Shown piece by piece: positions 51,653 through 64,000 of a stretch of DNA of 64,000 bases. Position numbers and translations under genes: made by a program. The DNA is from Prochlorococcus sp. AG-402-M23 (GTDB lineage: Bacteria > Cyanobacteriota > Cyanobacteriia > PCC-6307 > Cyanobiaceae): NCBI GenBank assembly GCA_003216575.1, contig QCIR01000008.1:1-64000 (forward strand), written 5' to 3'. Position 1 is the stretch's first letter. Each line of letters starts with the position of its first letter. Below the pieces are notes generated by a model. That model was not told the DNA's origin. It worked only from the letters and a program-made list of their open reading frames with translations, and ran no database searches.

Positions 51653-51712
51653 CGTCTGAAGAGGATCACAAAATATTCTTTTGGATAGTTGACTTGATAG
51701 GGTATTAATAAT

Positions 51713-51801
51713 GGAGAGGTGGCTGAGTGGTTGAAAGCGGCTCCCTGCTAAGGAGTTACAGGAGGCAACTTCTGTCGAGGGTTCGAATCCCTCCCTCTCC
51801 G
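51713..51801 (+). tRNA. tRNA-Ser (anticodon GCT); island boundary
   Basis: GGAGAGGTGGCTGAGTGGTTGAAAGCGGCTCCCTGCTAAGGAGTTACAGGAGGCAACTTCTGTCGAGGGTTCGAATCCCTCCCTCTCC+G; long variable arm. Confidence 0.97.
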
Positions 51802-51937
51802 TTCTTAATTAGTGTCACAGGGTGATATAAGAGGTTAGGAAGGCAAATAAATCAGTTACTACAGAATTTGCATGGTCAGGGATTCTTTAGTGTGACATAG
51901 CAAGTCAAGACTTTGTTGTAGGAAATGTTGTAGGAAT
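51785..51937 (+). mobile_element. tRNA-Ser att site plus left-end repeat (copy i)
   Basis: GAATCCCTCCCTCTCCG-TTCTTAATTAGTGTCACAGGGTGATATAA...TTTAGTGTGACATAGCAAGTCAAGAC-TTTGTTGTAGGAAATGTTGTAGGAA; near-identical arrangement recurs at 56746-56900. Confidence 0.7.
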
Positions 51938-52142
51938 GGATATTTCTTCCTCATGCTGGTGCTGCCTTTTATGCTGCTTCCTTCTCTCAAAAATCAGGAA
52001 CCATCAATACGTCATCTATCTCTTCAGAAAGAGGGTTGCAAGGATCCAAAACAATAGTTTTACTTCTTAGGAGTCTTTTTCTTTATTTAGATTCATGTTT
52101 TAATGCATATTGTTTAATAATTTAGTGTGCAGATAATTTATT

Positions 52143-53066
52143 ATGAAAAACTACGATAAAGTTGATTCGATACCTACTGGATTTAATATTGACTGTCTTT
52201 ATTCCCCTACTTATATAACAAAAATTGGAAGTAGATATTTTATTATTGATTGTTGGCATCATAGGATAATTTACTCTGAAAGTCTTGAAAAACCTATTAA
52301 ATATTGGAACAAACTTGATGAAAATATACCTTCTCCCCATTCATTGGCAGGTAATTCAAAACTTTATATCGCTGATTCAGCAGGTTCTGATTCTATTAGA
52401 TTATTTAATAACAATTTAAAAAATATAACTCCCATTTATGAAGTTAAAAATATCGGCAAAAGACCTCATAGAATATTATATGAAAATGATATTAAATTAT
52501 TTTTTATAATATGTTCTCTGGAAAATAAAATTTGTATAATAGATGTTAAAAATCAAGATAAACTTAAATTTTCATTTGTTCTGATACCTGAGTTAGAGTC
52601 TTCATATACACGTTCTATAACAATTTACAATAAACAAATATATTTTACATGTAGCAATTTTATTATTATTTATAATATTAAAGATAATGAATTTTCCTTC
52701 GTAAGGAAAATTCAATTACATAATAATTATAATTCTAAACATGGAATAAATGATTTATTCTTCTTTGATAATTTTAATGGAAAAGGAATATTGACTTTAT
52801 ATCCAAATAAAATGATACTTTTTGATAATATTAATGAATTGATTAATTCCTCTGCAGAAGATATATCATTTTTATTGAAAGGTACTCCATACTATATTAA
52901 TCAATTTGATAATAGGATATGGATTCCTGAAATCGATAACTATTCAAGAATTTGTAGTTATGGAATTACTAATGATACCATTAATGTTGATGATCAAATC
53001 GTTTACTTTGACTCAGTTAAATTAAAAAACGAATCTTTTTTGCGTAAACGAAGTATGCCATTTTAA
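52143..53066 (+). CDS. Hypothetical protein, beta-propeller-like repeats
   Basis: 307-aa ORF with repeated blades, e.g. SPTYITKIGSRYFIIDCWHHRIIYSES / PHSLAGNSKLYIADSAGSDSIRLFN. Confidence 0.6.
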   Translation: MKNYDKVDSIPTGFNIDCLYSPTYITKIGSRYFIIDCWHHRIIYSESLEKPIKYWNKLDENIPSPHSLAGNSKLYIADSAGSDSIRLFNNNLKNITPIYEVKNIGKRPHRILYENDIKLFFIICSLENKICIIDVKNQDKLKFSFVLIPELESSYTRSITIYNKQIYFTCSNFIIIYNIKDNEFSFVRKIQLHNNYNSKHGINDLFFFDNFNGKGILTLYPNKMILFDNINELINSSAEDISFLLKGTPYYINQFDNRIWIPEIDNYSRICSYGITNDTINVDDQIVYFDSVKLKNESFLRKRSMPF

Positions 53067-53132
53067 ATTAATTAACATAATCTTATTTCATCTGATTAAA
53101 GTTTTAATTTATTTTCAGTATATATATTTTCT

Positions 53133-53318
53133 TCAATCAATACCTTTGTGCTTGCCATTCTTTTTGATTCTCATGGTTCCTCTAAAAGAGATACCACCTC
53201 CTTTTTGCTTTGGTTCGATATAGACAACTAATCCTTTACCGCAACCTCTTGAATAGGATTTGTCCTTTATATCAAGAGATTCAATCTCCTTCTTAGTGGT
53301 AATTATGGTGTCTACCTC
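53133..53318 (-). pseudogene. Truncated integrase N-terminal (arm-binding, DUF4102-like) fragment
   Basis: Open frame EVDTIITTKKEIESLDIKDKSYSRGCGKGLVVYIEPKQKGGGISFRGTMRIKKNGKHKGID*; no canonical start, no catalytic domain. Confidence 0.6.
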
Positions 53319-53336
53319 TTATTGAAGATTGTTTTT

Positions 53337-53498
53337 TCATGCCTCTATGTCGCACCTTCTCCATGCGACATTGTTGCTACCTAAACGGATGTTCTTAGGA
53401 AATGTTCCGTCTTCCATCCACCTATAGATAGTCCTTGGGGTGACCTTCCCACATTCCTCTGTAACTTCAGCAATGGGAAGCAGTTCCAATGTTTTCAT
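53337..53498 (-). CDS. AlpA-like helix-turn-helix regulator / excisionase (53 aa)
   Basis: ATG-to-TGA: MKTLELLPIAEVTEECGKVTPRTIYRWMEDGTFPKNIRLGSNNVAWRRCDIEA; below ORF-track cutoff; AlpA pattern TIYRWMEDGTFPKxIRLGxxxVAWRxxDIEA. Confidence 0.85.
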   Translation of the reverse strand: MKTLELLPIAEVTEECGKVTPRTIYRWMEDGTFPKNIRLGSNNVAWRRCDIEA

Positions 53499-53647
53499 GA
53501 TTTAACATTAACTACTTTATTTGTTATATAAGAGATCTAATTTGCTCTCTTGATACTTACAATTATAGACCAAAGTTGTAGTAATTTCAAGGATTCTGCC
53601 ACCTTTATGCCTTGATAAAAAGAACTGCTAATTAACATTTTTAGAGT

Positions 53648-53749
53648 GTTGTAGGAAATGTTGTAGGAATTTCCCCTCTTTTTACAAATGCTGTGACATC
53701 CCTAGTCATAGGGTGTTTTGGCGTGTCACTTGGAATTCCTCCCTCTCCG
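53648..53749 (+). mobile_element. Right-end att scar (copy ii): paired 12-mer plus tRNA-Ser 3' end
   Basis: GTTGTAGGAAATGTTGTAGGAAT ... GAATTCCTCCCTCTCCG (16/17 match to tRNA-Ser 3' end). Confidence 0.65.
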
Positions 53750-54000
53750 TTTTGCATTAGATTCAGACGGATTTAGAAGAGTTCATAATCGCTCAAACCT
53801 ACTGATATGAATGATTAAAGGGGTTCACAAGGATTCAGAGGGATTCATACTAACTCAAACACGTGTTGCTGGTAAATGCTCTGGTCTCCTAAGTAGAGAA
53901 TCCAATCACTTAAGGGGATTTCACCGAATCTGTTGTTGGTCGCTTTCCCTGGAACCAGGAAATAACATCTTTAGATTTCAATTTTTGACGTTAATTTGGT
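53744..54000 (+). repeat. About 250-bp dispersed island repeat, copy A
   Basis: TCCGTTTTGCATTAGATTCAGACGGATTTAGAAGAGTTCATAATCGCTCAAAC...CTGGAACCAGGAAATAACATCTTTAGA; matching copy at 58618-58880. Confidence 0.7.
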
Positions 54001-54371
54001 AATTAGAGGTTGTAGATCGCCCAAATCCTGTTATATCGGTAAAGAGTAATTTGTTCTCTGCTGATTCTGAAAAACCTAATAGGACCTCATGTCTTTGCTC
54101 TACGCCATTATTTAAATTACCGACCCAATAATCGGATCCTCCTTGATCAAGTTCTCTGTTTAACACATTCAAATAAAGGGTCTCTAAGTATTTCTCATTA
54201 GAGATATTGCTCCCATATCTTTCTTTAAATTCTGCAGAAGCAAGAATTGATGATGACACTGCCCTTTCATCATCAATACCATAACTGAAATTGACAATCC
54301 AATATCTAAGTCCATCCGCATCAGGGAAACGAGCAAATGCGGCATTGTATAGACGAAAAATTTTTCTGAGT
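53978..54371 (-). pseudogene. N-terminally truncated DUF4214 protein remnant
   Basis: LRKIFRLYNAAFARFPDADGLRYWIVNFSYGIDDERAVSSSILASAEFKERYG...LYLNVLNRELDQGGSDYWVGNLNNG...HEVLLGFSESAEN; a stop (TGA) precedes the conserved start of the domain. Confidence 0.7.
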
Positions 54372-54473
54372 CAGTATTAATCCTGTGACTTGATCAAAGA
54401 CACCAATTAATTTCAATTATCCGCTGTTTTTTAGTAGTAAAATTGCAGTACCAAAAAAGAGAAAAAATAAAAG

Positions 54474-56465
54474 ATGGTGGATAGTTCTAGTCAAGAAGGA
54501 GAAAAAAAGAAGAAAATTACTGAATTAAAAACATTCCCAATTCCATTTTCTTTAATAGAAAATCAGGAAAATATTACTATTAATACAAATAGAATTTCTA
54601 AACCTTCTAAAGAAGAACTAATTAATCAAGCATTTAAGTTTCATTCACAAGGAAACATTTCAGAAGCAGTAAAATATTATCAATATTTTATAAATCAAGG
54701 TTTCAAAGATCACAGGGTTTTTTCTAATTATGGAGTCATATTAAAAGAAGTTTTCAAACTACAAGAAGCAGAATTATCTACTCGCAAAGCAATAGAAATC
54801 AAACCTGATTACGCAGAGGCGCATTTAAATCTAGGAAACATCTTGAGAGATCTTGGCAACTTACAAGACGCAGAATTTTCATACCGTAAAGCAATAGAAA
54901 TCAAACCTGATTACGCAGATGCACATTTAAATCTGGGAACCATATTGAGAGATCTTGGTAAATCACAAGACGCAGAATTATCCACGCGCAAAGCAATAGA
55001 AATCAAAGCGGATTATGCAGAGGCACATTACAATCTGGGAACCATATTGAGAGATCTTGGAGAATTACAAGACGCAGAATTTTCATACCGCAAAGCAATA
55101 GAAATCAAACCTGATTACGCAGAAGTACATTCCAATCTGGGAACCATATTGAGAGATCTTGGAGAATTACAAGAAGCAGAATTTTCATACCGCAAAGCAA
55201 TAGAAATCAAACCTGATTTCGCAGAAGCTCATTACAATTTGGGAAATGTATTGAGAGATCTTGGAGAATTACAAGAAGCAGAATTTTCATATCGCAAATC
55301 AATAGAAATCAAACCTGATTACGCAGAGGCGCATTCCAATCTAGGAAATGTATTGAGAGATCTTGGAGAATTACAAGAAGCAGAATTTTCATACCGCAAA
55401 GCAATAGAAATCAAATCTGATTACGCAGAGGCATATTCCAATCTGGGAAATATATTGAGAGATCTTGGTAACTTACAAGAAGCAGAATTATCTACTCGCA
55501 AAGCAATTGAACTTAAACCTTCTTATGTTAATGCACATGCCAATTTGGGAACCATATTGACAGATCTTGGTAATTTACAAGAAGTGAAACTTTTATCAAA
55601 ATCAACACTTGAATTAAATTCAATCAATCAAGGAGATAGTTTACTCGCTTTATTGCAAATTACGATCGCTAATTTCCTACAAGGAGATTTTGAAGAAACT
55701 ATATTGAACATCAATAAAACTAACGAATTAATAAAACAAGGAGGTCTTAATCTTATCAAAAATAAAGATATTAAAAAACAAGTCTTAGTTTACTCTCAAT
55801 TCATTTATTCACTCTATCCTCATCTTGAGAAAGATAATAAAAATCTTGATTTAGAAAAAATGCCTCATATCGGAGAAAGTCATTGTCTTTCTTTTGCTCA
55901 TCAAACTCTATCTATATCCTCACATTTTAAACAAATTCAACCAGTTTTAATAATGGGTGGAAAAGCGTGGCATTTTGCTAATAACAAAGAAAATATATGG
56001 AAAGATTCTTTAACTAAACAGATAAAAAATCATAACTATAGTGATAAAGTATTTATTTCTTTCGGAGAGATAGATTGTAGAAAAGATGAAGGCATACTCT
56101 ATTACGCAATTAAGAATAATAAAGACATTTCAGAAGTATGTGAAAAAACAATTAAAGGATATCTTGATTATATGGAAGAAATATTATCTCCAAATTACTC
56201 AGAAAGATATTACTTTGGTGTTCCAGCACCAACAAGAGTAAAGGAATTACTTGATGATTTAGATATAAAGAGAATTAAAATGGTTCAACTATACAATTCA
56301 CTTTTAAAAAAAGAAGTTTTATCTAGGGGTTCTTATTTCTTAGATGTTTATAAATTGACTTCTAACAATGATGGCGTAAATAACAATATTCATATGTGTG
56401 ATAAAACTCACCTTTCCCCTAAATGTCTTTCTATTCTATTTGAAAATTATCTACACAAAAGTTAA
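54474..56465 (+). CDS. TPR-repeat protein with C-terminal SGNH-hydrolase-like domain
   Basis: Eight consecutive 34-aa TPRs (LQEAEFSYRKAIEIKPDYAEAHxNLGxILRDLGx); C-term GESHCLSFA, FGEIDCR, CDKTHLS. Confidence 0.8.
   Translation: MVDSSSQEGEKKKKITELKTFPIPFSLIENQENITINTNRISKPSKEELINQAFKFHSQGNISEAVKYYQYFINQGFKDHRVFSNYGVILKEVFKLQEAELSTRKAIEIKPDYAEAHLNLGNILRDLGNLQDAEFSYRKAIEIKPDYADAHLNLGTILRDLGKSQDAELSTRKAIEIKADYAEAHYNLGTILRDLGELQDAEFSYRKAIEIKPDYAEVHSNLGTILRDLGELQEAEFSYRKAIEIKPDFAEAHYNLGNVLRDLGELQEAEFSYRKSIEIKPDYAEAHSNLGNVLRDLGELQEAEFSYRKAIEIKSDYAEAYSNLGNILRDLGNLQEAELSTRKAIELKPSYVNAHANLGTILTDLGNLQEVKLLSKSTLELNSINQGDSLLALLQITIANFLQGDFEETILNINKTNELIKQGGLNLIKNKDIKKQVLVYSQFIYSLYPHLEKDNKNLDLEKMPHIGESHCLSFAHQTLSISSHFKQIQPVLIMGGKAWHFANNKENIWKDSLTKQIKNHNYSDKVFISFGEIDCRKDEGILYYAIKNNKDISEVCEKTIKGYLDYMEEILSPNYSERYYFGVPAPTRVKELLDDLDIKRIKMVQLYNSLLKKEVLSRGSYFLDVYKLTSNNDGVNNNIHMCDKTHLSPKCLSILFENYLHKS
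54759..55574 (+). repeat. 8 x 102-bp tandem repeats encoding TPRs
   Basis: Near-identical 102-bp units, in frame. Confidence 0.9.
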
Positions 56466-56595
56466 GTTTAATTCAAGCAAATCTCTCTATACAAAATATT
56501 TCCCAGAAGATAAGAAGAAAATAAACTTACAAAACTGGGAAACATATGAAGAGAAGCATTCAAATACTTTCAAACCTAATGAATCAGGTCAATAG
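56466..56595 (+). pseudogene. Fragment of a methyltransferase C-terminal tail
   Basis: SKSLYTKYFPEDKKKINLQNWETYEEKHSNTF in frame with TAG, homologous to SLYKKYFPEDTKQTNLKNWGEVESKHPGIF at 63352-63918. Confidence 0.65.
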
Positions 56596-56745
56596 ATCAG
56601 TTTTTGAGTACAAAATACTTGTGCTAATAACCGATGGGTTCATACTAAGTTAAGCATGTGTTGTTGGTATTTTTTTTTGTAAATGGACGATTTTTAAATA
56701 TTTCCTGGTTCAATCAAGTTCACAGAGGGGCACTGGCTTCATACG

Positions 56746-56900
56746 AAAGTCCTCCCTCTCCGTACTTAATTAGTGTTACAGGGTGATATAAGGAGGTCAG
56801 AAAGGCAAATAAACCAGTTACAGAAAGAATTCGAATAGTCAGGGATGTCTTTAGTGTGACATAGCAAGTCAAGAATTTGTTGTAGGAAATGTTGTAAGAA
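56746..56900 (+). mobile_element. att scar plus left-end repeat (copy iii)
   Basis: CCTCCCTCTCCG-TACTTAATTAGTGTTACAGGGTGATATAAGGAGG...TTTAGTGTGACATAGCAAGTCAAGAATTTGTTGTAGGAAATGTTGTAAGAA. Confidence 0.7.
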
Positions 56901-56970
56901 TTATTGTTTTACAGGAATGATTTCCTGATAAGGGATGATAAATATCTAATTTATATAGTTAATTGATAAA

Positions 56971-58527
56971 TTATTTCTGATTACAGATAAAATTAAGTTT
57001 CTTGAAAGAAGATTTTCTAATAATTGCCATTAAATTTGAATCTTTTTGTATTGTACAGGACACTGAATCTTTTGGATAACTAGGGAAAATTTGATTAATA
57101 AAGTTCATTAGTGCTGCTTCGATATATGATCCTTTTAAATAAATTACCCCATTAACATCTTGTGGATTAATATTATTCACTTGCCATATAGCAACATCCT
57201 TATTATGAAATAAATTTGGATTAAATGATATAATAGGGTTTGAAAAGAGTACGCCATTATCTTTTAACTCTTTATAATTAGCATTTATTTTTTCAATGCC
57301 TTTATTTGTATTTAATTTGTATTCAATGGGTATATTCACTAAATGCTTATTTATGTAATCTAGATTTATTGTGTAGATCATTACACTGGTCAGGATAAAG
57401 AAAGGAAATAGATATTTATTTTTTAAGATAATTTTATTTGTATCTATTTCAGAGTTTATGCAGACAATTGGAAATAAAGTTCCAATTAAGAAAGGAAATC
57501 CATAATGGGCATCTAATAAACCTGCCATTGGACTTACCGCTGTTATATGAACAAGAAACCAAGGAATACATGAAATATAACCAATTATAAATAGCAAGTT
57601 TCTTGTTAATAAAAATGCAGAAATTGATAAAATCAATGGTATTATTAACCAATAATCATGAACTGCCTGTAAATTCAAAAGATCATTAAACCTTAACTTA
57701 AGGAAATGAAAACTCAAATGTGAATAGAAATTTTCGCCAGAGTACACACGCATAAATGCATTATCACTTGTGAAATATATTTTTTGAACGATGATAGATA
57801 TTCCAGAGAACGAAAAACCTAGCAAAGAAAGAACATAAGAAAAATTTTTGTACTGCTTTAAATTTATTTTATTATTATTAAATCTTTTTAATTGAAAGTA
57901 AAAATAAAAGTATAAAGTTAAATATAGAAAACCTAAATGAATTCCAGCATCTTCACGAAAAGTAAAAGCAATTAGTGCTGATATTATTGCTAACTTATTC
58001 TTTCTTCTGATGAAAAAAAATAGACTTAGGGATATCAAGGAAGGTATTATTACCTCGAAGTGTGGAAATTGTACTAATCTCTCTGGTTCTGATAATCCTG
58101 TATAAAGAAAGGAGAAAATATATACACTTACAAGTATAATCCACTTGTTTTTTAAATTAAAATTTTCCTTGATAGAAAAGTAATTCAGAGGAAAAACTAT
58201 CGATTGGCAAATACCAATAAAAATACCTAATTGTATAGGTTGAGAAAATGATTTAAATGGGCTAATTAATGAATATATTGCGATTGCAGGTGAAATATGT
58301 GTATCATAATATGATTCACTAGGTATTACATTTGGATTCCTTAGTTGAATACTTGCATTAGAAATTAAATGACCAAAAAATCCTGTGTCCCAAACAGGAG
58401 CACCAAATAAATAGTAATGAGAATTCATCCATATTACACGATAATAAATTAAACTTATAATTCCTAAAATTATAAATGAAATCTCTAATATGCTAATTCT
58501 AAAAATAGATGATTTAATCTTCAACAT
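56971..58527 (-). CDS. DUF2079 family multi-TM protein (putative glycosyltransferase-like)
   Basis: VWDTGFFGHLIS...DTHISPAIAIYSLISPF...FTFREDAGIHLG...DAHYGFPFL; multiple TM segments. Confidence 0.75.
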   Translation of the reverse strand: MLKIKSSIFRISILEISFIILGIISLIYYRVIWMNSHYYLFGAPVWDTGFFGHLISNASIQLRNPNVIPSESYYDTHISPAIAIYSLISPFKSFSQPIQLGIFIGICQSIVFPLNYFSIKENFNLKNKWIILVSVYIFSFLYTGLSEPERLVQFPHFEVIIPSLISLSLFFFIRRKNKLAIISALIAFTFREDAGIHLGFLYLTLYFYFYFQLKRFNNNKINLKQYKNFSYVLSLLGFSFSGISIIVQKIYFTSDNAFMRVYSGENFYSHLSFHFLKLRFNDLLNLQAVHDYWLIIPLILSISAFLLTRNLLFIIGYISCIPWFLVHITAVSPMAGLLDAHYGFPFLIGTLFPIVCINSEIDTNKIILKNKYLFPFFILTSVMIYTINLDYINKHLVNIPIEYKLNTNKGIEKINANYKELKDNGVLFSNPIISFNPNLFHNKDVAIWQVNNINPQDVNGVIYLKGSYIEAALMNFINQIFPSYPKDSVSCTIQKDSNLMAIIRKSSFKKLNFICNQK

Positions 58528-58581
58528 AATTTCCTTTATGCTGGCAATATTAATTAGTATACATAGCAGTATTTTCTACCT

Positions 58582-58880
58582 CTGTGATTCTCGTATTTCT
58601 TCTAAAAGAGATACCACCTCCGTTTTGCATTAGATTCAGATGGATTTAGAAGAGTTTATAATCGCTCAAATCTACTGATATGAATGAATAGAGTAGTTCA
58701 ATTGTATTCAGCTAGGTTCATACTAACTCAAGTGTGTGTTCGGAATGTTGTTGGGAGAAGTCATTTTTTTTGTTGGCAGAAAATTCAGTTGCTGCAAAGG
58801 ATCTCAGGAAATGTGTTGTTGGGAAAAATTTCTGGAACCAGGAAATATCATCTTCAGACTCAAAATTACGTGCTTAATTT
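58582..58880 (+). repeat. Dispersed island repeat copy B, fused to an integrase fragment
   Basis: 58582-58621 matches integrase remnant (GGGISFR on minus); 58618-58880 matches 53744-54000. Confidence 0.65.
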
Positions 58881-59079
58881 GATAAACGATTCTTGGTTAA
58901 AAGTATTGAAAAAGTTTCATATTTAATGGCAGAAACAACATGGAATCTGGCAAAAGTATCTCACCAAAACCAACGAAGCAGATACCTTTAGGACGATGAC
59001 CAGAAGAGCAAAATCAAGAAACCTCAGGCATGAGATGACTGATGATTCAGGACGCATGTTGGACGTTGTCAACCCCTGA

Positions 59080-59404
59080 GATGTTTATGAATATCTTCTT
59101 TACTCCTATTCTCTTCGCTGGAGTTTTCGCTGCATATGTAATGGATGACAGTGATATTGATAATGGAAAAGTTGAGATGTATTCCCAAGTAACTCATACA
59201 GGAAACGTCGTTTTTATTGGTAACAGGAATGGAATTTTCTATCCTTACCGCTGCTGTCAAATCAAAGGTGAACCACCATGCTGTCTTGATGCTTACCCAT
59301 CACTTTGGTTTCTACATGAGCGACACTCACTTGATGTCGTTGATCAAATAAAACTAATAAAAGAATATCTGATGACTGAAATTAGTCATTTAAGGTCCTT
59401 TTAA
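59080..59404 (+). CDS. Hypothetical small protein
   Basis: MFMNIFFTPILFAGVFAAYVMDDSDIDNGKVEMYSQVTHTGNVVFIGNRNGIFYPYRCC...; in-frame ATG inside the track ORF 59042-59404. Confidence 0.35.
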
Positions 59405-60379
59405 AGCGGGGTTTTCTATCAAGAACTTATGGATTCTCTGAAGAATTAGTTGTATATTTTTTTCTTCATAGATATTAGTCCTTTGAGTGAGTAAATAATG
59501 AACGTGTTTTTGCAGAGAAAGAGGTCCAGATTGTATTACTTTCCAATCTTTATCATAAGGATATTCAGAAATTCTAATGGGCTCCCCTTCTACACAACGC
59601 TTCTCATACCTATTTATATTTAGAAAATAACCATTTTCTGATATCTTATTTTGAATAAATTGAAAATAATATGAAATAACATCAAAGTTCATCTCCATCA
59701 TCGATCTGGTATTAATAAATAAATCTAACTTTATTCTTTCATCTATATTACAATTTGGAGGTAAAATAATAATATCATTCTTATTAAAATCTTCAACAGA
59801 TAAAAATTTGTTTTCATGATAATTATCATATAAAAAAAATTTCTTTTCTGGAAAGATTTCTTTCAGATAATAAGTTTTGATCAAATTTGATTCAGGCAAG
59901 TCTATTGAAAGAAGTTTAATGTCTAAATTATTAATGATTACTTGAGATAAGCTACCAAACCCTCCACCTATTTCACAAAAGGTTTTAGGTACATTATCTT
60001 CTGGAATAGCATCAATTAAATATTTATACCATAGAATATGAGGAATCTTATTTGAATCTAGATAATGATTCTTATAAAAGATGCAATAAGGACTATTACC
60101 AATATTTTTATTTAGCATATTTTTTAGAAAATATTCTTCCGACATACTCTTGATCTTAAAAAATGCTTTAAAATTTTCTAAAGAATATTGCTGCATGTAG
60201 CTATCATCTAGATCGTGTCCTATCCCATTCGTCTCTCTAAAGTTTACAAGTTTTGATTCATTGAAAATGCATTTATTATACCTTTCCCAATACAGACTTT
60301 TATGTCTCATATTTTCTGTATAATTATAAAATTCCTGATGTGCTAAATTAAAAACTTTTAATAGTCGCTTGTTGTCCAT
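59390..60379 (-). CDS. Putative sugar O-methyltransferase
   Basis: FCEIGGGFGSLSQVIINN; NTRSMMEMNFDVISYYFQFIQ; NINRYEKR. Confidence 0.8.
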   Translation of the reverse strand: MDNKRLLKVFNLAHQEFYNYTENMRHKSLYWERYNKCIFNESKLVNFRETNGIGHDLDDSYMQQYSLENFKAFFKIKSMSEEYFLKNMLNKNIGNSPYCIFYKNHYLDSNKIPHILWYKYLIDAIPEDNVPKTFCEIGGGFGSLSQVIINNLDIKLLSIDLPESNLIKTYYLKEIFPEKKFFLYDNYHENKFLSVEDFNKNDIIILPPNCNIDERIKLDLFINTRSMMEMNFDVISYYFQFIQNKISENGYFLNINRYEKRCVEGEPIRISEYPYDKDWKVIQSGPLSLQKHVHYLLTQRTNIYEEKNIQLILQRIHKFLIENPALKGP

Positions 60380-60808
60380 GCTTTAAAAATTAACTAACTA
60401 TTTTATATTTTAAAAATATACTATAGATATATTCTGATTTCCTAAATTAATCGAGAAAGAGTGGGTAACAGACATTTTTCAGTTCAGACGTTTTTCCTGA
60501 AATTATAAGTAGATTGATCTTCCAATCAATCCAATCCCATTCCAATCTCGTTACTGCACTCGCTCTAAGGAATGTCATTAACAAGAGTTTGGTTGCAAGT
60601 ACAACGTGAAAGTTGGATTAGTTTATTCTTTGTCCTTAGATTGAATGATGCTTAGTGCGAGATAATTTGGTTTGGGCTGTAATTTTTAAAAAGTTTGTTG
60701 TGAGAAGTGTTTTGAGAAATGGAAAGGGTGCTTTGATAATGCCATCAGCCAAATCAAGCTATGTCAGTGATTTATTCTGAGAAATATTTTTTAAGGCCAA
60801 AAAATCAT

Positions 60809-61603
60809 TTACATCCCTCTATTAAAGATAATATTCCCCATTCCCTTATTCCATCCTTCCTTGATTCGATCTTGCTCGACTTGATTTGAATCATATTCAA
60901 AACCAAGAGAAAGTAATAGATCAATAATATTCATATGCTCTTCAAGTTTTGAATAGATTTCAATTAAAACAGATTTTACTTTTGGGTTTTTAAGTGTTGT
61001 GATTGCTCCTTCAATAACTTTATGTTCTAAACCATCAACATCTATTTTTATAAAATCAGGAATAGGAAAATATTTTTCTTCAATAAAACTATCTAATTTC
61101 ATTCCTATACAACCTTGCTGAAAGGGAGATTTACCGGGAGTAAGATTAAATTTCAACTCTTCATCAAACATATGCCCAGAAGCAGCACCATCGATTGAAA
61201 ATGTGGAAAGATGAAGCACGCCAATTTTGTTTTCATTGCTCATTGCTAAACAAAAAGGTAACGTTTTTTCATAGAGATTATTAATTACTATATTTCTAAC
61301 AAGATTGGAAAAGTTCTGAGATTCTGGTTCAATTGAAACTACTCTACATTTTTTTACTACAGCTGCATAAACAGAGTAAATACCAATATTGGCTCCTATA
61401 TCTAAAAATGTATCGGTCTCTTTAAGTCTATTTAGCCATGAAATAGTAGAGGGTTCTTTAGTAAATAGAGTATTTATTCTAAATGTTGCCATTTTGCTTG
61501 GGGCAAAAAAATATAATTTCTCTCCTTGCTTAGAATCTATAGAAATTATAGTTGTTTTACCTGTATAACCCTCAAGAAAATTTATTTTGTTCTTTAGTTC
61601 CAT
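60809..61603 (-). CDS. FkbM family methyltransferase
   Basis: DTFLDIGANIGIYSVYAAVVKKCRVVSIEPESQNFSNLVRNI; DFIKIDVDGLEHKVIEGA. Confidence 0.92.
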   Translation of the reverse strand: MELKNKINFLEGYTGKTTIISIDSKQGEKLYFFAPSKMATFRINTLFTKEPSTISWLNRLKETDTFLDIGANIGIYSVYAAVVKKCRVVSIEPESQNFSNLVRNIVINNLYEKTLPFCLAMSNENKIGVLHLSTFSIDGAASGHMFDEELKFNLTPGKSPFQQGCIGMKLDSFIEEKYFPIPDFIKIDVDGLEHKVIEGAITTLKNPKVKSVLIEIYSKLEEHMNIIDLLLSLGFEYDSNQVEQDRIKEGWNKGMGNIIFNRGM

Positions 61604-61732
61604 TGAACCTTGTTCAAGTAAGTTTATTATGATGAATATTTATCTGATTTGCATTATCTTTCTTTCGATTTTATTGAATTTATAAGAAGACTTTAGTTTT
61701 TTAAACCTAATTTAGTTATAAAGTCTTATTTT

Positions 61733-62617
61733 TTATTTTAAAGTGTCTGGAAAATTAAAATTAATATTAACTGAAAATCTAGGACCAATATCAACTTGTT
61801 CATATTCAAATGAATGCCAGCTAGTATTAGATCGGAAGAAAAGCATAGTATATGTATCCTGAAATTTTGTACGAATTGGGGAACAAGTTTGTGTTTTAAA
61901 TATTTCGTAATCCTTATCCCACAATTGTTTATTTGAGGAAGCCATATCATTATTTTCAAAAACTCGATTTCCCATAAGATTTCTTTGTTTCCAAAAAGTA
62001 GTACCTAGATAGCTCTCTCTTTGCTCATCATTCTCAGGAAGGTAAATAAGTATAGAAACAATTTTTCTGGAAACATCAGTATGAGGTTTAATACATCCTC
62101 CCTTTTCTATTCTTGAAATTTCAATACTAGGTATAAAAGGTATCGAATTTGTGGTCAAAATAAAGTTTTCAATATCTTTTTTTTGAAAACCCGGTGTAAC
62201 TCTCCATAAATCTAATTCAGGAACTTGAATAGGTACTAATTTATATTGTTTCTGGTTAATTTTTTTTATTAAATCAAATTTATTTATATCTTTTAGAATG
62301 TTTTTAAATTCTAAATGTTGAATCAGATCTGTATTGCTTTGAAAAAATAAATTACCAATAATTTCTAAAATTATCTTATTTTCAAAAATTGATATAATCT
62401 TTTTGATTGGCTCACTTTTATATAGTTCTTCTTTAAAATCTTTACTATTGCTCACTAATGAATACTTTAACCCTCTCGAATATTGAAGAAATTGATCTTT
62501 TGAAATTTTCTTTATGATTTCTATCAAATCAGTTCTCAGATCTTTTTCAATTAAATTCGAAAAGCCATAGACGGAGTCTCTTATGTCAATTAGTTTTTTT
62601 ACTTCAATGTTTGCCAC
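61733..62617 (-). CDS. 2-oxoglutarate/Fe(II)-dependent oxygenase-like protein
   Basis: IEKGGCIKPHTDVSRKIVSILIYLP (HxD), NTSWHSFE (distal H), GPRFSVNINF. Confidence 0.65.
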   Translation of the reverse strand: MANIEVKKLIDIRDSVYGFSNLIEKDLRTDLIEIIKKISKDQFLQYSRGLKYSLVSNSKDFKEELYKSEPIKKIISIFENKIILEIIGNLFFQSNTDLIQHLEFKNILKDINKFDLIKKINQKQYKLVPIQVPELDLWRVTPGFQKKDIENFILTTNSIPFIPSIEISRIEKGGCIKPHTDVSRKIVSILIYLPENDEQRESYLGTTFWKQRNLMGNRVFENNDMASSNKQLWDKDYEIFKTQTCSPIRTKFQDTYTMLFFRSNTSWHSFEYEQVDIGPRFSVNINFNFPDTLK

Positions 62618-62678
62618 TGAGAAATGAAAATATTCAATCTAGAAAGATTTTAATACTTTTAAAAGTATTTTCTTTTAT

Positions 62679-62793
62679 GTTGTGAGAAATGTTGTGAGAA
62701 AAAGCCTAGTTTTTCAAAAAGTAAGTTCCTATCCGTTCTATACCGTTTGTTTTATCTCTAGTCTGAAACCCTCCCTCTCCTTTCTTAATTAGT
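62679..62793 (+). mobile_element. Right-end att scar (copy iv): paired 12-mer plus tRNA-Ser 3' end
   Basis: GTTGTGAGAAATGTTGTGAGAA ... GAAACCCTCCCTCTCCTTTCTTAATTAGT (27/29 match to 51785-51813). Confidence 0.65.
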
Positions 62794-62969
62794 TTAAAAT
62801 ACAATTTATGCATTCCCATACAAAGCAAAAATATAGTCGAAATAATGGTTTTGAAAATTAAAGCGTTTCAAGCTTTTCCTTAGTGAGCTATAAAGCTTTG
62901 GCATAATTATATATGCCCTTTCGAATCCCAGAGCTGATATATAACTGCAAAGCTACTGTGATTCTTTTT

Positions 62970-63060
62970 TGCAAATCTTACCCAGTTTTGTAAGTTTGTT
63001 TGTTTTTAGCTTCTGGGAAATAGTCCTTATAGCGAGATTTACTTGGTTGAGGCAGTCAGA
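62970..63060 (-). pseudogene. Degraded methyltransferase C-terminal tail copy
   Basis: Minus-strand CTGCCTCAACCAAGTAAATCTCGCTATAAGGACTATTTCCCAGAAGCTAAAAACAAACAAACTTACAAAACTGGG aligns with the tail of the 63352 gene; frameshifted and stopped. Confidence 0.6.
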
Positions 63061-63128
63061 ATTAGATGTAATGTATAAATTTTAGTCATTAACTTACTAA
63101 TTTTTCGAATTTATACTCTAGATTTTCC

Positions 63129-63269
63129 TTAATAGTTCTGAATTAAAAAGTAGTGATTTATCTTTAAAGCTCTTCTTTCATATTCTTTTTCATTATTAGC
63201 AATTAACTCAGGCAGGCCTATCGAAGTTAGAATGCTCGCAGAGACCCTTGCTGCAAAACTTTCTCCTTC
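63129..63269 (-). pseudogene. OGT/SPINDLY-like glycosyltransferase (GT41) C-terminal remnant
   Basis: EGESFAARVSASILTSIGLPELIANNEKEYERRALKINHYF...; matches GT41 motif GxSFAxRVxASLLxxxGLPELI; frame interrupted upstream. Confidence 0.7.
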
Positions 63270-63351
63270 TTAGTGCTAATCTTTCTGCATTAAATATATA
63301 AGTAAATGCCTTGTCCTTTCATTTCATTTTTCTTATCTTTAGCCTAATTAT

Positions 63352-64000
63352 TTATTCGCCTTTAGAAACCCAAAAATGAGGAGTACCCCCAAAGATTCCA
63401 GGATGTTTACTTTCTACTTCCCCCCAATTTTTTAAGTTTGTTTGTTTTGTATCTTCTGGAAAATATTTCTTATATAGAGATTTAGTTTGTTGAGGAAGGC
63501 AGAATCCAAGAAACTTTAATTTGTGGAAGATAAGAGTATCTTCTAGTTGCTTGAAAGTAAAACGATGTTCTTGGTAGTGAAAACAAAGGTCTCGGAAATT
63601 TGATGTAGTATAGAAATCACAATCAGGACCTGTAAGAGAATATAATTCGGGGCATTTTCCAGACAAGATATCTTTTCTTAGATTTCGCATATTATCTATA
63701 TTGGGATTAATATTTTTGGCTTTTATATATTCTCTTGCTTTAACTACTCTCTGTCTTGATAATTCACTATATAATGATAATCTGATATAACCTTTAGGGT
63801 TGAAGATTTCTAATAATGCCTTTAGTCCTTGCTGAGGGTCAGCCATATGGTGTAAAACACCACAACATTCTATGATGTCAAACTTTTCTTTTAATAAAGC
63901 AACTTCTAAAATATCCATTTGAAATAGGTTTACATTCTTTATACCTATTTCATTTATTTTTCTTTGGGCAAAGGAAAGACTGGAATTGCTTATATCTATT
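63352..64000 (-). CDS. Class I SAM-dependent methyltransferase (5' part beyond window)
   Basis: Open through the right edge: IDISNSSLSFAQRKINEIGIKNVNLFQMDILEVALLKEKFDIIECCGVLHHMADPQQGLKALLEIFNPKGYIRLSLYS...; the track start at 63918 is internal. Confidence 0.85.
   Translation of the reverse strand, partial: IDISNSSLSFAQRKINEIGIKNVNLFQMDILEVALLKEKFDIIECCGVLHHMADPQQGLKALLEIFNPKGYIRLSLYSELSRQRVVKAREYIKAKNINPNIDNMRNLRKDILSGKCPELYSLTGPDCDFYTTSNFRDLCFHYQEHRFTFKQLEDTLIFHKLKFLGFCLPQQTKSLYKKYFPEDTKQTNLKNWGEVESKHPGIFGGTPHFWVSKGE

Follow-up and report, generated by a model that had tools for sequence, protein, structure and literature searches.

The tRNA-Ser(GCU) gene of Prochlorococcus sp. AG-402-M23 is followed by a genomic island that occupies the last 12 kb of the window, the 64,000-nt stretch of contig C8 analysed here. 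The source assembly is fragmented (1.68 Mb in 69 contigs, 88% complete). Ribosomal protein genes, prfA, an HNH-like gene and alr lie on the 5' side of the tRNA gene. The far end of the island could not be located in this genome, as neither rpoA nor the native flank had a match in the assembly. Much of the ecological diversity of Prochlorococcus sits in islands, and the usual mobile elements are scarce in this genus. The island contains the features listed below, where "core" denotes a copy of the last 12 bases of the tRNA gene and "arm" a putative arm-type tandem repeat near a unit end.

51712-51802, + strand: tRNA-Ser(GCU), found with ARAGORN; the final 12 bases serve as target core (attB half)
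51790-53749: element A, ~1.95 kb, with identical arms at both ends
51790-51937, + strand: left end of element A, with its core at 51790-51801 and the arm-like repeat TGTTGTAGGAAATGTTGTAGGAAT in tandem at 51914-51937
52143-53066, + strand: element A cargo, 307 aa, no Pfam match
53136-53318, - strand: stub of a ~425-aa tyrosine integrase, reduced to the N-terminal arm-binding domain; 61 codons open, rest missing
53340-53501, - strand: AlpA-type excisionase/regulator, 53 aa (PF05930, 39.8 bits, cut-off 21)
53647-53749, + strand: right end of element A, with the core at 53738-53749 and an arm at 53647-53670 that repeats the left one exactly
53738-53874, + strand: left end of unit B, of the TTTTGCATTAGATTCAGACGG type, with a decayed arm around 53864-53874
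54474-56465, + strand: unit B cargo, 663-aa TPR protein
56651-56762, + strand: right end of unit B, with core 56751-56762 and, near 56655, a half-decayed arm TTGTTGGTA; recognised by alignment with intact ends of G005 and L020
56751-56901, + strand: unit C1 left end, 90% identical to the element A left end; arm 56878-56901
56971-58527, - strand: C1 cargo, 518 aa, no Pfam match; hydrophobic and membrane-protein-like by inspection only
58580-58747: relic in which part of an integrase stub meets, at CCACCTCCG, a copy of the left end of unit B (85% over 123 bp)
60558-60719, + strand: probable decayed C2 left end; at 60558 a core with 4 mismatches, at 60696 (+137) the arm TTGTGAGAAGTGTTTTGAGAA
60809-61603, - strand: C2 cargo, FkbM-type methyltransferase (PF05050)
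61733-62617, - strand: C2 cargo, possible 2OG-Fe(II) oxygenase-like protein (PF13640, 22.4 bits, below the cut-off of 27)
62678-62781, + strand: C2 right end; arm TTGTGAGAAATGTTGTGAGAA at 62678, core 62770-62781 with one mismatch
62782-64000: unit D begins here with left end TTCTTAATTAGTTT; no arm could be recognised

The core CCTCCCTCTCCG at the end of the tRNA gene (51790) recurs exactly at 53738 and 56751 and with one mismatch at 62770 (CCTCCCTCTCCT), always on the + strand and in the orientation of the tRNA. An earlier sequence-only reading of this DNA had noticed the three recurrences, the last of them as a 27/29 match of the tRNA 3' end at 62765-62793, and these observations hold (93% for the 27/29 match). 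It had also asked whether the repeated word is frequent by chance. The exact 12-mer has four copies in the whole 1.68-Mb genome, three of which lie within this 5-kb stretch; the fourth is on contig C13, inside a gene that its ORF identifies as formamidopyrimidine-DNA-glycosylase-like. Across 29 orthologous Prochlorococcus loci, the 10-mer CTCCCTCTCC occurs 32 times in forward and never in reverse orientation downstream of the tRNA (226,876 bp), and in neither orientation upstream of it (246,352 bp). Another 446 kb of sequence contains it twice, and the composition-based prediction given alongside these locus counts is 0.03. The repetition extends beyond the core, as 56751-56901 is a 151-bp repeat of the tRNA-proximal unit. 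Judged from such alignments, the scar copies are joints with longer element ends, more than repeats of the tRNA end alone.

Coincidence of the scars with presence/absence breakpoints in related genomes had been set beforehand as a test, and the two do coincide. In five genomes the site is empty, the tRNA-Ser gene being directly followed by native flank (L012, L013, L016/G029, L021/G030 and G037), which runs into the rpoA-rps11-rps13-adk-secY genes where the contig continues. A conserved word of this flank lies 50-65 bp past the tRNA core in the empty genomes. Six occupied genomes (G032, G036, G014, G024, G010 and G027) show this spacing as well, measured from their last scar, whose core has 0-3 mismatches. 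Nine other genomes have a located native flank whose border shows no clear core, so some joints have decayed or been lost by other events. A short tandem repeat, variable in copy number between species, lies in this native flank ahead of rpoA, just after the tRNA gene (L016, L021).

Alleles that end at individual scars, which the same reading had called for, were found as well. The sequence to the right of scar 53738, the unit B left end, adjoins tRNA-Ser in L018, L027 and L069 with 82-93% identity. The sequence to the left of this scar, the element A right end, is 99% identical over 105 bp in G032, where it ends at the scar and is joined to native flank. The flanking DNA of these two species is only ~81% identical, which argues that at least the element A right end has been moved or exchanged recently. 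The central proposal of the sequence-only reading, serial scars of integrative elements at tRNA-Ser, is thus supported by the breakpoints and the core counts. Its view that this copy is specially informative for its preserved scars fared less well, because serial scars are found genus-wide.

Besides the core, the unit ends have a second sequence element at a predictable distance. In left ends, 122-137 bp past the start of the core (about +125/+135), stand two directly repeated 9-mers whose period is 12 bp; in right ends, a repeat of this kind precedes the core by 88-94 bp (about -92). Repeats at these tight offsets are present in 17 of 25 occupied tRNA-adjacent left ends, on either side of 26 of 41 internal scars, at none of four native flanks and at 0.7-0.9% of random positions; the detection thresholds were chosen after viewing the data, and the random controls were run at identical thresholds. 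Intact arms are fewer in deeper left ends than in tRNA-adjacent ones (Fisher p = 7e-4). The repeats form sequence families, among them TTGTAGGAA, TTGGGTGGA, TTGTTGTGAGG, TTGTTGGTA/TTGTTGGGA, GAGGGGGAT and GTGGGGGGA. Identical arms are found at both ends of full-length units, namely element A and units in G005 and G006; the latter two are clean units with one long ORF each, both methyltransferases. Mismatched ends occur in unit C and in several units of relatives, and units of this sort appear to be composite. The position, direct repetition and pairing of the tandem repeats suggest that they are arm-type integrase sites.

Element A combines its cargo gene with a truncated integrase and an AlpA gene. 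Its 61-residue stub matches the N-termini of full-length 420-440-aa integrases from other genera of the family, the best match being an integrase in G179 (46% identity, E 1.9e-10), and its 307-aa cargo has one 43% homologue among 400 family genomes. In G032 the element A unit is just 217 bp long, exactly as a deletion between the two 24-bp arm repeats would give. Units of 217-226 bp with one shared arm are also present in L028, G033 and G006.

A complete element with the same layout was found in G381, which belongs to another genus of the family. Behind alr and the orthologous tRNA-Ser(GCU), this genome has a 5.46-kb element (core 4170 to core 9627) that comprises, in order, the core, an arm at +125 (TTGTTGGGATTGTTGTTGGGA), small genes, a resolvase-type serine recombinase, a 426-aa integrase, AlpA, an arm at -90 (TTGTTGGGAATGTTGTTGGGA) and the core. 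The integrase-AlpA-arm-core order and the strands are those of element A, and the right arm matches, without a difference over 21 bp, the left arm of the unit next to the tRNA in G002. The N-terminal region of the G381 integrase scores 22.2 bits against Arm-DNA-bind_3 (below the cut-off of 27), and the C-terminal part 26.6 bits against Phage_integrase (just below the cut-off of 27.1). With its tyrosine integrase, AlpA and small serine recombinase, the element looks like one of the tycheposon kind.

No tyrosine integrase was detected at the search threshold in any tRNA-Ser(GCU) island of 41 genomes of the genus; the tyrosine recombinase genes found elsewhere in the genus lie outside these islands. 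Likewise, no full-length integrase with the window's TTGTAGGAA arms was found in 400 family genomes, of which only six matched the arm pattern. A search of viral contigs with three arm sequences gave three matches to two patterns, all inside long predicted ORFs resembling cyanophage structural genes and with no tRNA found, and was set aside as coincidence.

Downstream of element A, unit B (3.0 kb) has ends of the TTGTTGGTA family with decayed arms. The sequence-only reading had counted at least four units and treated 56763-62780 as one of them. Separate units are indeed present, but this third one (6.0 kb) is composite, so that four is an undercount; a single element is ruled out by the left arm TTGTAGGAA against the right arm TTGTGAGAA and by the relics within. 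The relic at 58580-58747 may have arisen when a unit integrated into an integrase gene, at a secondary site resembling the core. The region 60558-60719 is probably the decayed left end of C2 (~2.2 kb), given an arm that matches the right end at 62678; this assignment of the core at 60558 depends mainly on the arm, because 17 island positions have the core with up to four mismatches. Decayed C-terminal pieces of the TPR-methyltransferase family (YFPED..NLQNW..EEKH..) lie at 56460-56600 and 62960-63100, suggesting that genes of this type have been lost repeatedly. In unit D, TPR-methyltransferase genes continue to the contig end at 67462.

The ends shuffle among loci, the same left ends being found beside the tRNA and beside varied right ends, and end combinations differ in nearly every species; the single-linkage clustering of ends merged several families and gives a coarse picture only. 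TPR genes occur in multiple copies over the set of islands. In one type of left end, a further site resembling the core, TTTCTTTTCTCCTCCCTCTCC, lies 189-257 bp inward (L019 at 8091, L024 at 11532, L025 at 11604, L073 at 5375 and, in reverse, L068 at 9940). At this site another unit's left end is attached in L019 and L073, which suggests targets besides the tRNA. A short protein relic, QTFDYGLKDITKLDDFNQVFDWENSSFYQ, recurs scattered over islands, including L129, L068, L153, L024 and L071.

The same end anatomy also accompanies a closely similar core, CCACCCTCTCCG/ACACCCTCTCCG, which is located at tRNA-Ser(CGA) in G217 and G078. In one case, an 889-bp unit with this core type has TTGTAGGAA arms at both ends, and G008 has five CCACCCTCTCCG-type sites within 3 kb behind tRNA-Ser(CGA). 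Parallel scar arrays of this core type were seen in L147 (G008:C30, 768-3757) and L174-L177, at tRNA-Ser(CGA) where the contig has a tRNA; they include 700-889-bp units with one main ORF, and L174-L177 have TTGTAGGAA-type arms.

Together, our results favour the view that small integrative elements, most of them non-autonomous, have accumulated one after another at the 3' end of tRNA-Ser(GCU), joined to the core by a tyrosine integrase (probability about 0.85). Each unit would bring attP-like ends, each with CTCCCTCTCC in its core and a pair of directly repeated 9-mers as arm sites for integrase binding. An AlpA-associated tyrosine integrase of ~425 aa would join the circular unit to the tRNA core, and the incoming unit would restore the tRNA and push the older array outward behind a fresh partial-tRNA scar. 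The newest unit need not always lie nearest the tRNA, since insertion seems to occur at internal core-like sites too (L019, G020). Since the integrase here is decayed to its arm-binding domain (element A) or absent, integration and excision would require an integrase acting in trans, from an intact element with matching arms. As no integrase was detected in the islands of the 41 genomes, either movement needs an integrase from elsewhere or the array is a fossil. Scars, empty sites and the shuffling of ends are all explained by site-specific integration that recurred over time at the tRNA core.

Chance or local repetition of pyrimidine-rich 12-mers without functional meaning would be one alternative, as the 12-mer is of low complexity and ~1.5 matches per 64 kb are expected by chance at up to two mismatches. 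However, the 32 forward against 0 reverse copies, together with the breakpoints, arms and empty sites, make it vanishingly improbable, and the core counts in the genome and across the 29 loci rule out chance repeats. The array could instead consist of fixed fossils: autonomous elements of the tycheposon kind integrated long ago, their integrases were deleted and nothing has moved since, so that differences between genomes reflect homologous-recombination deletion between scars or arms. Such a history is a serious contender to which we give roughly one chance in three, for it accommodates the integrase stubs, the genus-wide lack of an intact integrase in the islands, the collapse between arm repeats in G032 and the decayed arms of unit B. 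It sits poorly with the element A right end, whose near-identity in species with diverged flanks speaks for recent movement or exchange, with end combinations that differ in nearly every species and with single-gene units that have intact matching ends.

Ordinary homologous recombination between chromosomes could also reshuffle the array through the repeated ends, site-specific recombination playing no present part. The left-end repeats of ~150 bp could act as homology, and the TPR genes are present in multiple copies. We consider it unlikely, since homology often stops at the 10-12-bp core, which is too short for efficient RecA-type exchange, and the border of the native flank sits at the core.

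Tycheposons of Prochlorococcus, which the sequence-only reading had named as known tRNA-anchored elements with partial-tRNA repeats, were reportedly introduced by Hackl et al. (2023, Cell). As summarised in sections of PMC10872708 and PMC10187409, they belong to the same group of organisms and likewise have a tRNA 3'-end target, cargo and a distal partial-tRNA repeat; a size range of 4-200 kb is given in PMC10872708. The units here show the tRNA 3'-end integration and the distal partial-tRNA repeat. Of the encoded tyrosine recombinase only the N-terminal stub at 53136-53318 is present, and element A, unit B, C2 and the collapsed 217-bp unit of G032 are all smaller than this range. Because no unit has an intact tyrosine recombinase, the units are not tycheposons as described and resemble non-autonomous derivatives. 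Fixed-spacing arm repeats are not part of the tycheposon descriptions in these sections, which are the basis of the comparison.

The ssrA islands of Dehalococcoides, as described in sections of PMC3146451, resemble this array in that several stand in tandem behind one RNA gene with 20-bp partial-gene repeats, and about half lack the integration module. They differ in using the serine recombinase DsiB instead of a tyrosine integrase and in targeting tmRNA, and those sections report no paired arm repeats. CIMEs, discussed in the same sections, are likewise att-flanked segments without an integrase of their own that adjoin one another; element A corresponds to this definition, with related core and arm ends around a truncated integrase. 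CIME accretion-mobilisation involves a conjugative helper, whereas no conjugation genes were noted here. Additive flexible genomic islands include the tRNA-Lys islands of Ca. Methylopumilus, which concern another tRNA and phylum and whose ends and integrase are not dissected in the relevant part of PMC10872708. Integron cassettes also form arrays of small, some one-gene, units at one preferred site, but the array here has a tRNA target and core and arm sites within the units, and no integron integrase was found in the islands (no Phage_integrase match). Both the Prochlorococcus tycheposons and the stacking of elements in tandem behind an RNA gene, with repeats of part of that gene, are already known, the latter from the sections of PMC3146451 and PMC10872708 considered. 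The corresponding sections of PMC3146451, PMC10872708 and PMC10187409, which for tycheposons are secondary descriptions, do not describe paired arms that fall into families, the recognition of non-autonomous units by such arms, arm-to-arm collapse or single-gene units.

More speculatively, and in our estimate short of even odds, the array may belong to a tRNA-anchored gene-cassette system of picocyanobacteria. Its small, in some cases single-gene, cassettes would have minimal ends (~150 bp left, ~100 bp right) with arms of distinct families, would be moved in trans by helper AlpA-integrase elements and stored at tRNA-Ser, and would lose genes through arm recombination, leaving 217-bp empty shells. 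The shared, predictable end anatomy of core, arm repeat and spacing allows the islands to be parsed into units and makes empty or collapsed units recognisable, and the arm families make it a testable question which helper integrase moves which units. If the units do move in trans, small cargo units would be mobile without mobility genes of their own and would be missed by the usual annotation.
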